Below are positions 56,040 through 63,057 of a stretch of DNA of 64,000 nt, one piece after another. The notes under the pieces were generated by a model. That model ran no database searches, was not told the origin of the DNA, and saw only the letters and a list, made by a program, of their open reading frames with translations. The translations under genes and the position numbers were made by a program. Source of the DNA: Coleofasciculus sp. FACHB-T130 (lineage in GTDB: Bacteria; Cyanobacteriota; Cyanobacteriia; Cyanobacteriales; FACHB-T130); the NCBI RefSeq assembly GCF_014695375.1, contig NZ_JACJOG010000035.1, positions 1-64,000 on the forward strand. The letters are read 5' to 3'. Position 1 is the first letter of the stretch, and each line of letters starts with the position of its first letter.

Positions 56040-56154
56040 GCCAAATTGTAACTTTGATTACATTCTCCCTTAAAATTTATTGATATCTATACATTTAAGC
56101 TTTCAAAGTTCATCCAACAAATATTGATAGCTATCGGGTAAAAAAAATTAATAG

Positions 56155-56280
56155 CTTCTAGGGTTCCGGTTTACGTCTAAAGATTTAAACGGCTGGTCCG
56201 AGAGAAGCGAATCAGTCATGGAGTGTTTTTAGAAATTGAAACACGGACTGGTTACACGGCGGGAGAAAAGCCCGGGAGGT
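56155..56280 (+). promoter_or_regulatory. Guanidine-I (ykkC) riboswitch aptamer
   Basis: The conserved elements appear in the right order: CTAGGGTTCCG at about 56158, CTGGTCCGAGAG (56193-56204), then ACACGG followed by CGGGAGAAAAGCCCGGGAGG near 56254-56279. These are the hallmarks of the ykkC/guanidine-I class, which binds guanidinium and switches on carboxylase, exporter or guanidine-degradation genes. It lies about 120 bases before a GdmH-type gene, which fits exactly. The call is by consensus memory, not by a covariance model. Confidence 0.93.
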
Positions 56281-56327
56281 ACATAGCAGAAGCTTATCTG
56301 TTATGGCTTACCCGGGCTATTGTTTTT
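56269..56327 (+). terminator. Riboswitch expression platform: mutually exclusive terminator
   Basis: AGCCCGGG (56269-56276), the 3' strand of the aptamer, is perfectly complementary to CCCGGGCT (56311-56318). Between them CATAGCAGA pairs with TCTGTTATG (one G-U). The stem is followed by ATTGTTTTT. Forming this terminator would break the aptamer, so guanidine binding should allow read-through: an ON switch. This is deduced from base complementarity. Confidence 0.85.
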
Positions 56328-56396
56328 GCAAGTCTTCTTTGACTTGGGAGAAAAAATAGAGCTTTTAGACTGACGAAACATCCCATTTTTCCAAAC

Positions 56397-57590
56397 ATGA
56401 CTGACATGAATTCTCAAAACTCGAATTCGGATTTTCAGCCGCCGTCTACTGAAGCGAGTCGCGCCTTAGAGAAAGAAACCTATCTGCCAATGACAGGCTG
56501 GCAACAAGAGGTGGCAAAAGGGTTAGAGTTTGGATTAGAGGCAGCAGAAAGTATACGCGATCGCTCTATTTCTACCTTCTCTCGCGGCGAACTTCCCCAC
56601 TACGCAGGCATTAACACCTTCCTGAAAGCACCTTATATAGAAGATGTGCGAAAAGTCGGTGAATACGATGTTGCAATTGTAGGCGTACCGCACGATTCTG
56701 GCACCACCTACCGGCCTGGAACCCGGTTCGGTCCCCAAGGAATTCGGCGAATTTCAGCTTTGTATACCCCCTATAACTTTGAACTAGGGGTTGATTTGCG
56801 AGAGCAAATAACTCTGTGTGATGTTGGAGATATTTTCACAATTCCGGGAAATAACGAAAAGTCATTTGACCAAATTTCTAAAGGAATTGCTCACATCTTT
56901 AGTTCCGGTGCTTTCCCAATAATTTTGGGAGGCGATCATTCAATTGGCTATCCCACAGTGCGGGGAGTTTGCCGCCATTTAGGGGATAAAAAACTGGGGA
57001 TTATTCACTTCGATCGCCACGTCGATACCCAGGAAACAGACCTTGATGAGCGCATGCACACCTGCCCTTGGTTCCATGCCACAAACATCAAAAATGCCAA
57101 TCCAAAAAACCTCGTGCAATTAGGAATCGGCGGCTGGCAAGTGCCGCGTCAAGGTGTAAAAGTCTGTCGAGAACGAGCCACAAATATTCTGACGGTTACA
57201 GACATCACAGAAATGGGTTTGGATGCAGCAGTAAACTTCGCTCTAGAAAGGGCTTTAGACGGAACCGACTGCGTTTATATCAGCTTTGATATTGACTGCA
57301 TTGATGCCGGTTTTGTCCCAGGAACGGGTTGGCCTGAACCGGGCGGATTATTGCCCCGCGAGGCTCTTTATATGCTGGGCAAAATTGTTCAGAAAGCACC
57401 CGTTTGTGGACTTGAGGTGGTGGAAGTGTCGCCCCCTTACGACATCAGCGACATGACATCTTTGATGGCAACTCGAGTGATTTGCGACACGATGGCGCAT
57501 CTGGTGCTATCAGGACAGTTACCCCGAAAAGAAAAAGCCGCATACATTCACCCCTACGCCCAACCAGAATTAGTTGCGGAGTGGAGTTAA
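56397..57590 (+). CDS. gdmH: GdmH: nickel-dependent guanidine hydrolase (ureohydrolase family)
   Basis: A 397-residue ureohydrolase-fold protein. The metal ligands of the arginase/agmatinase family are present: GGDHSIGYPT, HFDRHVDTQ and SFDIDCIDAGFVPGTGWPEP. Compared with agmatinases (about 300 residues) it has an N-terminal extension of about 70 residues, and HFDRHVD replaces the common HFDAHXD; both fit the cyanobacterial guanidine hydrolase group (Synechocystis Sll1077 type). That enzyme turns guanidine into urea and ammonia using nickel. The riboswitch upstream and HypA/HypB-like genes downstream give strong contextual support. Agmatinase is the older annotation for such genes. Confidence 0.93.
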   Translation: MTDMNSQNSNSDFQPPSTEASRALEKETYLPMTGWQQEVAKGLEFGLEAAESIRDRSISTFSRGELPHYAGINTFLKAPYIEDVRKVGEYDVAIVGVPHDSGTTYRPGTRFGPQGIRRISALYTPYNFELGVDLREQITLCDVGDIFTIPGNNEKSFDQISKGIAHIFSSGAFPIILGGDHSIGYPTVRGVCRHLGDKKLGIIHFDRHVDTQETDLDERMHTCPWFHATNIKNANPKNLVQLGIGGWQVPRQGVKVCRERATNILTVTDITEMGLDAAVNFALERALDGTDCVYISFDIDCIDAGFVPGTGWPEPGGLLPREALYMLGKIVQKAPVCGLEVVEVSPPYDISDMTSLMATRVICDTMAHLVLSGQLPRKEKAAYIHPYAQPELVAEWS

Positions 57591-57593
57591 GCC

Positions 57594-57980
57594 TTGCACG
57601 AAACTGACATGACAAAGGCGCTCATTTTCACAGTAAAAGACTGGTGGGAATCCCAAACCGAGCGCCCCCAGATTACGCAGATTCACTTAATTGTTGGTAA
57701 GTTCACTTGTGTGGAACCTGTCAGTCTGCAATTTGCCTTTGAGGTACAGACTGCTAACACCTTTTTGGAAGGGGTAGAACTGGTGATTCAGGAAACACCG
57801 CTGATTGCCTTTTGTCACCGCTGCCAACAAGAATATGCACCACAAGTTGGATTGCAGTACGGCTGCCCTGAGTGTCACTCACCAATGGAGGATATTCGCT
57901 CAGGGAGAGAACTGAAAATTGACCGGATTGAGTATAGTTTTGACGAGGCAAACAAAAACGCTTATGCATCAAACATTTGA
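57594..57980 (+). CDS. ghaA: HypA-like nickel chaperone for GdmH (GhaA)
   Basis: A 128-residue HypA-family protein. The N-terminal MHE nickel-binding motif appears only if translation starts at the TTG at 57594 (three bases after the gdmH stop), which decides the start. The zinc site is CHRC and CPEC, 20 residues apart, around residues 73-97. No hydrogenase genes surround it. Its place between gdmH and the hypB-like gene points to nickel delivery to the guanidine hydrolase, as shown for homologous clusters. Confidence 0.9.
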
Positions 57981-58674
57981 CGCTGCATTAGGAATTAACT
58001 TGCTCCATGCTAATCAGAAAGGAGCCGATCATAACCGAGCGCATTTTGATGAGTGGGGGATTACTTGTTTCAATATTATGAGTAGTCCTGGGGCGGGTAA
58101 AACGGCACTGTTAGAGCGATCGCTTGCTGTTTTGACGGATGAGTTGAAAATCGCCGTCATTGAAGGAGATATGACGACGGAGTTGGATGCCGACCGTTTG
58201 CGTCAATCTGGAGTCCCTGTAATTGCAATTAATACGGGGCGTTCCTGCCACTTGGATTCCAAGATGGTAGCTGGAGGAATTCATCAACTAGAACACCAAT
58301 ATAATCCTTCGGATTTTGATTTAGTGCTAGTTGAAAATGTCGGTAATTTAGTTTGTCCTGCTGAGTTTGAAGTGGGAGAACACGTTAAAGTTGCTTTGTT
58401 GAGCGTGACTGAAGGGGAAGATAAGCCGCTCAAATATCCGGTGATGTTTCAAGAAGCGGATTGTTTGCTAATTACCAAGATCGATTTAGCTCCTTATCTC
58501 GATATTGATATTAATCGGATTGCCGCCAACGTTCGTCAGATGAACCCTCATGTCACAATTATTGCGGTTTCTGCCAAGACGGGTGAGGGATTAGAAAATT
58601 GGTTTGATTGGGTAAAGTCGCAAGTTTTAAATCAACGTTCATCTGCTGCGGCAACAGAAATGCTACCCGCCTAA
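57964..58674 (+). CDS. ghaB: HypB-like GTPase for nickel insertion (GhaB)
   Basis: A 236-residue SIMIBI GTPase. Walker A is [12 protein letters not shown]. The switch regions include [12 protein letters not shown] and the GDKPLKYP-like [13 protein letters not shown]; the base-specificity loop is ITKID. The Cys-His of the HypB metal site is in TGRSCHLD, and [17 protein letters not shown] is typical. It lacks the N-terminal Cys-rich high-affinity nickel motif of some HypBs. I chose ATG 57964, overlapping the hypA-like gene by 17 bases. It likely loads nickel into GdmH. Confidence 0.9.
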
Positions 58675-58702: not shown

Positions 58703-59722
58703 ATGAAGACCCGCCAGTTACTTTCTCTATTCTCAGTCTTTTTGCTCAGCCTCGTCATTACTGTTAGTTGTGCTAACCCCCAGCAAACCGCTACATCCTC
58801 AAAAACTGAAACAATTCAAATGGGTTTCAGTGTTTGGCCTGGGTGGTTGCCCTGGCAGGTGGCTCAAGAAGAAAAGCTGTTTGACGCGAACAAAGTTAAT
58901 GTGAATTTGAAGTGGTTTGATGGCTATTTAGATTCCATTAACGCCCTCAATGCTGGTCAGCTCAGCGCGAATACCCAAACCTTGAATGACACGATCAGCT
59001 CAGTGGCTGCTGGTTCCGATCAAGTGATTGTATTAGTTAATGACAATTCGACAGGCAACGATAAAATTATTGTTCGGGAAGGTATCAATAGTATTGCCGA
59101 CCTCAAAGGGAAAAAAATCGCTGCTGAAGAAGGAACCGTCGATCATTTTTTGCTACTTCTCGGACTGAAAAAAGCGGGTTTAACCCAGGCTGATATTACT
59201 TTTCAGCCTTTAGAAACCGGCGCAGCCTCAGCTGCTTTTGTTGCGGGTCAAGTGGATGCAGTTGGAGTTTTTGCACCGTTTACCAGCAAGGCGCTAGAAC
59301 GTGCTGGAAGTAAAGAATTATTCAGTTCTAAAGACTTTCCGGGAGCAATTCCCGATCATTTAACGGTCAGTCGAAAACTGATTACCGAACGTCCTCAAGA
59401 CGTGCAAGCTTTGGTCAATACTTGGTTCGACACGTTGGCGTTTATCCGCACCAATCCTGACAAAGCTTACGCCACAATGGCAAAACGGGCTGGGGTCACG
59501 GTTGATGAATACAAGAAATATGAAGCCGGGACTAAAATCTTTACCATTGAAGATAATTTGAAAGCATTTAGTCCCGGTAATGACATGACCTCTTTGGGTT
59601 ACGCCGCTCAAGAAATTAGCAAATTTTTAGTTGAGGCTAAGTTAGCTAAACAGGCTCCGAATCTCACCCAAATATTTGACGATCAGTTTATCAAAGCCTA
59701 CGCGGCAAAGCAAAAATCATGA
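58703..59722 (+). CDS. ABC transporter substrate-binding lipoprotein (guanidine importer candidate)
   Basis: A 339-residue lipoprotein of the NMT1/SsuA-TauA class. The signal ends in TVSC (Cys at about 23). The mature domain starts QMGFSVWPGWLPWQVAQEEK and has the family's WFDGYLDSINALNAGQL, LKGKKIAAEEGTVDHFLLLL and AGQVDAVGVFAPF segments. Relatives bind nitrate, sulfonates or taurine. Placement right after gdmH-ghaA-ghaB under a guanidine riboswitch argues for guanidine or a derivative. It overlaps the permease gene by four bases (ATGA). Confidence 0.88.
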   Translation: MKTRQLLSLFSVFLLSLVITVSCANPQQTATSSKTETIQMGFSVWPGWLPWQVAQEEKLFDANKVNVNLKWFDGYLDSINALNAGQLSANTQTLNDTISSVAAGSDQVIVLVNDNSTGNDKIIVREGINSIADLKGKKIAAEEGTVDHFLLLLGLKKAGLTQADITFQPLETGAASAAFVAGQVDAVGVFAPFTSKALERAGSKELFSSKDFPGAIPDHLTVSRKLITERPQDVQALVNTWFDTLAFIRTNPDKAYATMAKRAGVTVDEYKKYEAGTKIFTIEDNLKAFSPGNDMTSLGYAAQEISKFLVEAKLAKQAPNLTQIFDDQFIKAYAAKQKS

Positions 59723-60567
59723 ACCGCTACGCTGAAGATTTGCCGGAAAATAATTCCGCTCGTCCTCGTAAAATGTTATCGCCTAGCGTCTTCTGGCGCA
59801 TTGGTGAGGAGATTCCTAAAAAATTGGCATGGACTTTAATGGTTCTGTCAATTTGCATCCCGCTTGCTCTTTGGTGGATAGTCTCCAATGCTGGGATAGT
59901 CGCACCTTTATTTTTGCCGACTCCCGCTCAAGTTTGGGGCGCTTTTCAGAGGCTTTTAGCAACTGGCGATTTGCAAAAAGATATTGCCTATAGCCTGTTT
60001 CGCGTTCTGAGTGGCTTTTCTCTGGCGGCGCTGATTGCAATTCCCTTAGGGATACTGATGGGAACTTTTTCCAGCATTCGAGCGCTGATGGAACCGATTA
60101 TTGGCATTGTGCGTTATATGCCAGCACCGGCTTTTATTCCCTTACTAATTTTGTATTTTGGTCTGGGAGAAGAACCAAAAATTCTGCTGATTTTTATCGG
60201 AACGCTATTTTTTAACACGCTCATGGTGATGGATGCGGTGAAGTTTGTACCGAAAGAGCTATTGGAAACTTCCTACACCTTGGGCGGTCAGCGAAAGCAA
60301 GTTTTATTGCAAGTAATTTTTCCCTTTATTCTTCCGAGTATTATCGATGCGGGTCGCGTCAATATGGCAGCTTCTTGGAACTTAGTCATCGTGTCCGAGT
60401 TGGTGGCAGCGACAGAAGGCTTGGGTCGCCGTATTAGTGTCGCCCAAAGATTTCTCAAGACCGATGAAATTTTTGCGGGACTGATTGTAATTGGCTTGAT
60501 TGGTTTGACGATCGACCTTTTGTTTCGATTGTTACTGCGCGTGTCTTGTAAGTGGGCTAATGATTAA
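59719..60567 (+). CDS. ABC transporter permease (guanidine importer candidate)
   Basis: A 282-residue BPD-type permease with about six membrane helices from residue 38 to 278. The cytoplasmic coupling motif is recognisable as TLGGQRKQVLLQVIFPFILP followed by a conserved Gly (DAGR). It belongs with SsuC/TauC-type permeases. ATG overlaps the binding-protein stop, so translation is coupled. The ATPase gene follows after 106 bases. Confidence 0.9.
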   Translation: MNRYAEDLPENNSARPRKMLSPSVFWRIGEEIPKKLAWTLMVLSICIPLALWWIVSNAGIVAPLFLPTPAQVWGAFQRLLATGDLQKDIAYSLFRVLSGFSLAALIAIPLGILMGTFSSIRALMEPIIGIVRYMPAPAFIPLLILYFGLGEEPKILLIFIGTLFFNTLMVMDAVKFVPKELLETSYTLGGQRKQVLLQVIFPFILPSIIDAGRVNMAASWNLVIVSELVAATEGLGRRISVAQRFLKTDEIFAGLIVIGLIGLTIDLLFRLLLRVSCKWAND

Positions 60568-61665: not shown

Positions 61666-61751
61666 AAACTTGAAGTTAAGAAATAGAAAAATTTAAGAGT
61701 CCTGGGCAGAAAAAGTAGTATTCCTCAAGATTGCCCCCTAGCACTCTCCCT

Positions 61752-62531
61752 ATGAATCGACCCCTCCGTACCTTGGGTATGCCCCCGAATGCTTGGGCAG
61801 TTGATGCGGAAATTGCTGATATTACGCGCCCCCCTTTAAAACCGCAACTTGTCACCCTAGCCACAGAAACCAAGACGCTACGCCTAGATTTGGCAAAAGC
61901 TGCGATTTTGGTGATTGATATGCAGAATGATTTCTGTCATCCAGATGGCTGGCTAGCCCACATTGGCGTAGACGTGACACCCGCCCGAACTCCTATCAAT
62001 CCTCTCAAAACGCTGCTACCAGAATTGCGAACAGTAAACGTTCCAGTTATTTGGGTTAATTGGGGAAATCGTCCTGACTTACTGAATATCAGCGCTAGTG
62101 TACGCCATGTTTATAATCCCACCGGCGATGGAGTGGGTTTAGGAGATCCGCTACCCGCGAATGGTGCGCCAGTGCTGATGGTGGGCAGTTGGGCGGCGGC
62201 GGTGGTGGATGAATTGGAACCAAAACCGGAAGATATTCGCGTCGATAAGTACCGGATGAGCGGTTTTTGGGATACACCTCTCGACAGCATCTTGCGGAAC
62301 CTGGGAAAAACGACTTTGTTTTTTGCCGGAGTTAATGCGGATCAATGCGTGATGGCAACGCTGCAAGATGCTAATTTCCTTGGCTATGACTGCATTTTGG
62401 TGAAGGATGGTACTGCTACCACATCCCCAGAGTATTGCTGGCAAGCCACCCTTTATAACGTAAAACAGTGTTTTGGTTTCGTGGCAGATTCTCAAGCTAT
62501 CGTAGAAGCAATTCAGTTGGCTAACCGCTAA
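61752..62531 (+). CDS. Isochorismatase-like cysteine hydrolase
   Basis: About 260 residues from ATG 61752. The catalytic triad is visible: Asp in VIDMQNDF (about 60), Lys in RVDKYRMSGFWDT and Cys in VNADQCVMATLQDA. The fold includes biuret hydrolase, N-carbamoylsarcosine amidase, ureidoacrylate amidase and nicotinamidase. In this neighbourhood a urea- or guanidine-derived amide is a reasonable substrate guess, but the motifs do not settle it. It follows the ABC genes on the same strand after a repeat-rich gap, so it could be a separate transcript. The cupin gene follows it. Confidence 0.85.
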   Translation: MNRPLRTLGMPPNAWAVDAEIADITRPPLKPQLVTLATETKTLRLDLAKAAILVIDMQNDFCHPDGWLAHIGVDVTPARTPINPLKTLLPELRTVNVPVIWVNWGNRPDLLNISASVRHVYNPTGDGVGLGDPLPANGAPVLMVGSWAAAVVDELEPKPEDIRVDKYRMSGFWDTPLDSILRNLGKTTLFFAGVNADQCVMATLQDANFLGYDCILVKDGTATTSPEYCWQATLYNVKQCFGFVADSQAIVEAIQLANR

Positions 62532-62601: not shown

Positions 62602-63057
62602 ATGGACTCGTCCCGTTGCATGATTCCGATCGTCAAGTCTCCCAGAGACTATCAAGCCTTTCGCATCAGTCCTGAGGATAGTAATCGGTTAGCGATTGTC
62701 TTCGATCCGGCAAGCGCTAACGTTTCATTAACTTTTTGTGTAGAAATTTTTGATGTTGGTGGGAAAACTCCTCCCAATCGTCACCAAATGGCGGTGGAGA
62801 TGTTTTTTGTCCTCAAGGGGCAAGGACTGGCAACTTGCGACGGCAAAACCGTCCCGATTCGCCCTGGAGACAGCTTATTAGTACCGCCGACGGGGATTCA
62901 TAAAATTGAAAATACAGGTTGCGATCGCTTGTATACGCTGTGCTTTATGGTTCCCAACGAGGATTTTGTGGAACTAATTCGCAGCGGCGTCCCCGTCGAG
63001 TTGGATGAGGAAGATTTAACAGTTCTGAATCGTTCAGATGCGCTTGTCGCCTGCTAA
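62602..63057 (+). CDS. Cupin-domain protein
   Basis: A 151-residue single-domain cupin. The metal-binding pattern is present: His in NRHQMAVEMFFVLKG with the following Glu, and His in PTGIHKIEN. GDSLLVPP lies between. It could be a small metal-dependent enzyme or a binding protein. It follows the cysteine hydrolase by 70 bases with GGAG upstream of the ATG, so the two are probably one unit. The function is unknown. Confidence 0.82.
   Translation: MDSSRCMIPIVKSPRDYQAFRISPEDSNRLAIVFDPASANVSLTFCVEIFDVGGKTPPNRHQMAVEMFFVLKGQGLATCDGKTVPIRPGDSLLVPPTGIHKIENTGCDRLYTLCFMVPNEDFVELIRSGVPVELDEEDLTVLNRSDALVAC

Follow-up and report, generated by a model that had tools for sequence, protein, structure and literature searches.

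The leader of gdmH in Coleofasciculus sp. FACHB-T130 raises the question of which signals decide whether the genes behind it are transcribed: guanidine alone, or guanidine together with the nitrogen status of the cell. The DNA analysed, here called the window, is a stretch of 64,000 nucleotides (contig NZ_JACJOG010000035.1, positions 1 to 64,000). A sequence-only reading had ascribed control of the operon to a guanidine-I riboswitch with an overlapping terminator; the riboswitch was upheld, while an NtcA-type promoter upstream of it had been overlooked. We put at roughly 0.8 the probability that this promoter and the riboswitch, whose terminator shares a strand with aptamer helix P3, together form a two-input control region.

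The elements of the aptamer are:

56147-56280, + strand: guanidine-I (ykkC subtype 1) aptamer, matching Rfam RF00442 at 80.6 bits (gathering score 63)
56261-56263 (GGG) and 56271-56273 (CCC), + strand: aptamer helix P3, from the Rfam structure line

The covariance search thus recovered the aptamer that had been recognised by eye. The alignment (E 9.4e-13) covered model positions 1-107 of 107, and nowhere else in the 64 kb window did an Rfam model reach its gathering score. When the source genome was searched (6.2 Mb, 60 contigs), a single guanidine-I match was obtained, that of the window itself. The RNA of 56147-56280 is predicted to bind guanidinium. The element had earlier been given as 56155-56397; this start lies 8 bases too late, and the end coincides with the A of the gdmH ATG. 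Most of the conserved bases are common to both ykkC subtypes (available text of PMC5912903), and the aptamer might on that ground be assigned to subtype 2, which would make it a sensor of ppGpp or PRPP. We consider this assignment to have almost no chance of being correct, and it was rejected: the sequence scored 80.6 bits with Guanidine-I, its context is that of gdmH, a guanidine hydrolase homologue, and not of purine or amino-acid genes, and a permissive Rfam scan of 56050-56420 (E up to 1) returned RF00442 as the only riboswitch, together with two other matches far under their family thresholds, although subtype 2 perhaps has no model of its own.

Downstream of the guanidine-I aptamer, and partly within it, lie the elements of a terminator:

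56269-56276 and 56311-56318, + strand: terminator hairpin, AGCCCGGG paired with CCCGGGCT, enclosing the inner hairpin and excluding P3
56282-56289 and 56298-56305, + strand: inner hairpin, CATAGCAG paired with CTGTTATG, between the terminator strands
56319-56328, + strand: T-rich tract of the terminator, ATTGTTTTTG, read directly from the sequence

The complementarity and T-rich run proposed earlier were found as described, the outer strands being exact complements over 8 bases; with a second hairpin between these strands, the terminator is therefore a two-tier hairpin. It was not reported by a simple terminator scan, which considers only loops of 3-8 bases. The claim that aptamer and terminator are mutually exclusive also held. 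The CCC at 56271-56273 is common to P3 and the terminator, and at the window locus (L001) the complement plus T-tract downstream of the aptamer was equalled in 0 of 200 dinucleotide shuffles. Growing transcripts were folded with an energy model that leaves aside ligand, tertiary contacts and kinetics: a fold with P3 lay no more than 0.4 kcal/mol from the best at ends 56280, 56300, 56306 and 56312, and at 56318 the terminator fold became the better by ∼9 kcal/mol (-62.7 versus -53.6). Forcing P3 at 56328 in the same model caused the remaining aptamer to rearrange. The fold of the 206-nt stretch had a z-score of -5.4, with 0 of 200 shuffles as stable. The ∼35 bases transcribed between the two terminator strands would give guanidinium time to bind. 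Guanidine-I riboswitches usually are transcriptional ON switches that prevent a terminator (available text of PMC12186494), and the predicted guanidine-dependent read-through into gdmH is supported by its agreement with this usual action and with the conserved platform.

To follow the platform across related loci, we searched 386 of the phylum's genomes, a selection from a larger group, and obtained a guanidine-I match in 121. Sixty of these 121 belong to one distant family with genomes of ∼2 Mb (f32), a family excluded whenever platforms or boxes were counted. A match scoring below the cut-off (G296) was likewise left out, and the locus set, with f32 outside and the window included, comprised 68 loci from 60 genomes. 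In 46 of the 68, no more than 10 of 200 shuffles equalled the best downstream complement plus T-tract. All six core pairs were formed in 47 loci, 46 of which also have the T-rich tail, and were not formed in the other 21. Locus L037 (family f26) forms the six pairs with no T-rich tail and was matched by 103 of 200 shuffles, as chance would give; it was not counted, leaving 46/68 terminators. The shuffle-based 46 and the 46 based on core pairs and tail differ in that L081 appears only in the former and L064 only in the latter. The 22 loci above 10/200 shuffles were 13 of family f26, locus L040, four of family f8 (L032, L054, L055 and L064), whose terminator seems by eye to pair GGGAG further 3′, and four weaker matches (L043, L050, L052 and L086).

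Two loci keep the pairing despite an altered aptamer strand, L067 (AAACCTGGGAG with CTTTCGGGTTT) and L085 (AAGCCCAGGAG with CTCCTGGGTTT). Of the core positions, one pairs the aptamer G with C (17 loci) or T (29 loci). Support from covariation is mostly one-sided because the aptamer strand, which must bind guanidine, is nearly invariant. The inner hairpin was kept in 13 of 13 hand-chosen relatives aligned with the window; in the nearest named relatives (Nostoc, Komarekiella, Chlorogloeopsis and Fischerella) inner hairpin and terminator are nearly identical to those of the window.

In the 13 loci of family f26 (L008, L015, L017, L022, L036, L037, L045, L046, L047, L053, L066, L073 and L075), no terminator-like partner beating the shuffles was detected. 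They carry GdmH downstream at 80-84% identity, with gdmH beginning shortly past the aptamer, which suggests an expression platform different from a terminator. These loci and L040 have the same aptamer and no shuffle-beating terminator partner; the aptamer can therefore work with another platform, and control of translation or of RNA stability instead of termination has to be weighed for the window too. There it is very improbable, because the window holds a complete terminator, T-tract included, that overlaps P3, and the gdmH start lies ∼70 bases beyond it. Termination remains the preferred output.

Upstream of the aptamer, two further elements were found:

56048-56061, + strand: NtcA box, a perfect GTAN8TAC, GTAACTTTGATTAC
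56081-56089, + strand: TG-extended -10 element (TGA-TATCTA), TGATATCTA, with the hexamer at 56084-56089 and a 22-base spacer to the NtcA box

In the canonical NtcA-activated promoter, GTAN8TAC is centred ∼41.5 bases before the start and the -10 element is TAN3T (available text of PMC3898017). The window resembles such a class II promoter in its box and in the -10 element 22 bases downstream, but differs in its hexamer, TATCTA, which is without the final T required by TAN3T, and in standing before a riboswitch terminator; this promoter type is a feature of the surroundings, not of the aptamer itself. We read 56048-56089 as an NtcA-type promoter to which NtcA is predicted to bind, with the transcript probably starting near 56096. 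NtcA itself is encoded in the genome (390 bits, cut-off 245). A generic sigma-70 scan found no promoter, a result that agrees with an NtcA promoter lacking a -35 element.

The box might nevertheless be accidental and the promoter an ordinary one, followed by a simple guanidine-I ON switch. Induction by guanidine would be explained by the riboswitch alone, the window holds 8 copies of GTAN8TAC where 5.8 are expected, and 35 of 118 non-redundant related loci have no strict box. We regard an accidental box as unlikely all the same, because the box followed by N19 and TGNTA occurs only 11 times in the 6.2 Mb genome, one of them here (5 for the reversed control), and because box and spaced TGNTA recur at related loci far above background. 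The latter was examined with a pattern chosen after it had been seen in the window. A strict box lay within 250 bases upstream in 43 of the 68 loci (shuffles: mean 2.0, maximum 7); control regions had a box in 5 of 66 cases for the next 250 bases upstream and in 45 of 2011 downstream windows. The box was also present at 52 of 66 loci from named genomes, a second set that shares some members with the first. These 66 came from the best 80 of at least 575 named gdmH loci, 13 being set aside as without an aptamer by a simple pattern, which can miss real aptamers, and 1 as having <200 upstream bases. Before near-duplicates were removed, the box was present at 96 of 135 loci (mononucleotide shuffles: mean 9.6), and in the non-redundant set at 83 of 118 (dinucleotide shuffles: mean 4.07, maximum 9); both backgrounds are far under the observed counts. 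A box followed 21-23 bases later by TGNTA was present at 55 of the 118, the shuffles giving a mean of 0.09 and a maximum of 1, and the spacing to the TA peaked at 22 bases after the box (58 of 86 boxes). NtcA boxes upstream of cyanobacterial guanidine-I riboswitches thus far exceed chance. In family f26 none of the 13 loci has a strict box; 12 have GTAN8CAC (-47 to -51), and the remaining one has GTAN8GAC at -50. That the combination of NtcA promoter and guanidine-I terminator operates as an AND gate across the cyanobacteria is a good probability, if one held with somewhat less confidence than the reading of the window; the terminator-less f26 must use another output.

The genes under the putative two-input control are:

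56397-57590, + strand: gdmH, Ni-dependent guanidine hydrolase (often annotated agmatinase), Pfam Arginase
57609-57980, + strand: hypA-like Ni chaperone (ghaA), TIGR00100 above cut-off
57964-58674, + strand: hypB-like Ni GTPase (ghaB), TIGR00073 above cut-off
58703-59722, + strand: ABC substrate-binding protein, SsuA family, TIGR01728 above cut-off, in its conserved operon place
59719-60567, + strand: ABC permease, PF00528
60674-61477, + strand: ABC ATPase, PF00005

The first protein matched the PDB chains 7esr/7oi1 at 772 bits and 9fek at 588, the next family reaching only 175. The structure table labels these entries agmatinase 2; we take them to be guanidine hydrolases. The gene can be identified as gdmH, as had been proposed, and its product is predicted to hydrolyse guanidine. 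The further claim of a gdmH operon likewise stood, hypA, hypB and the ABC genes following on the + strand as in the known operon. The HypB is the only one above cut-off in the genome, so most likely it serves GdmH and not a hydrogenase. The ABC system is presumed to be a guanidine importer. Urease is encoded elsewhere in the genome, and the path from guanidine to ammonium is therefore complete. The operon genes also lie downstream in many of the 68 related loci. Among the best 80 of at least 575 named gdmH loci, several of which end early, hypA was found in 76, hypB in 73, the substrate-binding protein and the ATPase in 54 each and the permease in 53.

Two more genes follow in the window, an isochorismatase-family hydrolase (61731-62531, + strand), which starts 253 bases after the ATPase gene and scores 138 bits as RutB and 121 as biuret amidohydrolase, both far below cut-off, and a small cupin (62602-63057, + strand). 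Neither had a match in the best 80 of at least 575 named gdmH loci, and in the 68-locus set the sole match was one of 30% to the hydrolase, on the minus strand (L078); many loci in both sets end before these genes would be reached. As they were unmatched at the named gdmH loci, the two genes were not counted with the conserved operon.

The control design is likely that of an AND gate: NtcA would initiate transcription when nitrogen runs short, and guanidine would allow it to continue past the leader. In cells short of nitrogen, NtcA together with 2-oxoglutarate would start the transcript near 56096. When guanidine is lacking, the terminator would form once 56311-56318 had been transcribed, and synthesis would stop at ∼56328. 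Guanidinium would stabilise P3 and the aptamer core so that no terminator forms, and RNA polymerase would continue through gdmH-hypA-hypB and the ABC importer genes. After import, hydrolysis of guanidine would yield urea and ammonium, the remaining nitrogen being released by urease. Use of the guanidine genes would probably be confined to times of nitrogen shortage at which guanidine is available.

Comparison with known systems shows which parts are familiar. The window shares with the guanidine-I class (RF00442) the full-length covariance match, the terminator overlapping the 3′ side of the aptamer and the ON layout; its P2 loop differs in being longer than in the 13 aligned relatives. Synechocystis sll1077-sll1082 (gdmH-ghaA-ghaB-ABC importer) matches the window in the kinds and order of its six genes and in its guanidine-I leader (available text of PMC8390497 and PMC10094980), the isochorismatase-family gene and cupin that follow in the window being the difference. 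The products of the Synechocystis operon rise in guanidine-producing cells (available text of PMC8390497). The operon is lowered by excess ammonium, an effect reported to depend on Slr1821; in the accessible portion of that report (PMC10094980), NtcA is not named as a regulator of the operon, and the NtcA regulon is dealt with apart from it. The words guanidine, riboswitch and agmatinase are absent from the main text of an NtcA ChIP study (PMC3898017). NtcA ahead of a guanidine-I riboswitch was unreported in the literature searched, as far as the available texts go; a 2025 PNAS study of this riboswitch in cyanobacteria and the 2017 NtcA ChIP study in Synechocystis may well contain it. The riboswitch, the operon and the mechanism are already published, and the NtcA promoter is the addition. 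The coupled promoter suggests that guanidine is a fall-back nitrogen source for cyanobacteria and not only a poison to be removed. The coupling bears on why guanidine sensing is so widespread, and is relevant to users of this riboswitch as an inducible tool.

Two observations concern other guanidine-I loci. Seven of them (L033, L050, L052, L060, L062, L087 and L089) gave no tblastn match to the window operon genes within ∼9 kb downstream, and six of these seven have a strict NtcA box. One of the seven, L089, is half of a pair with L091 (G129:C1:729650-733319), in which two guanidine-I riboswitches lie on the same strand 3.4 kb apart, the first preceding an ABC importer.
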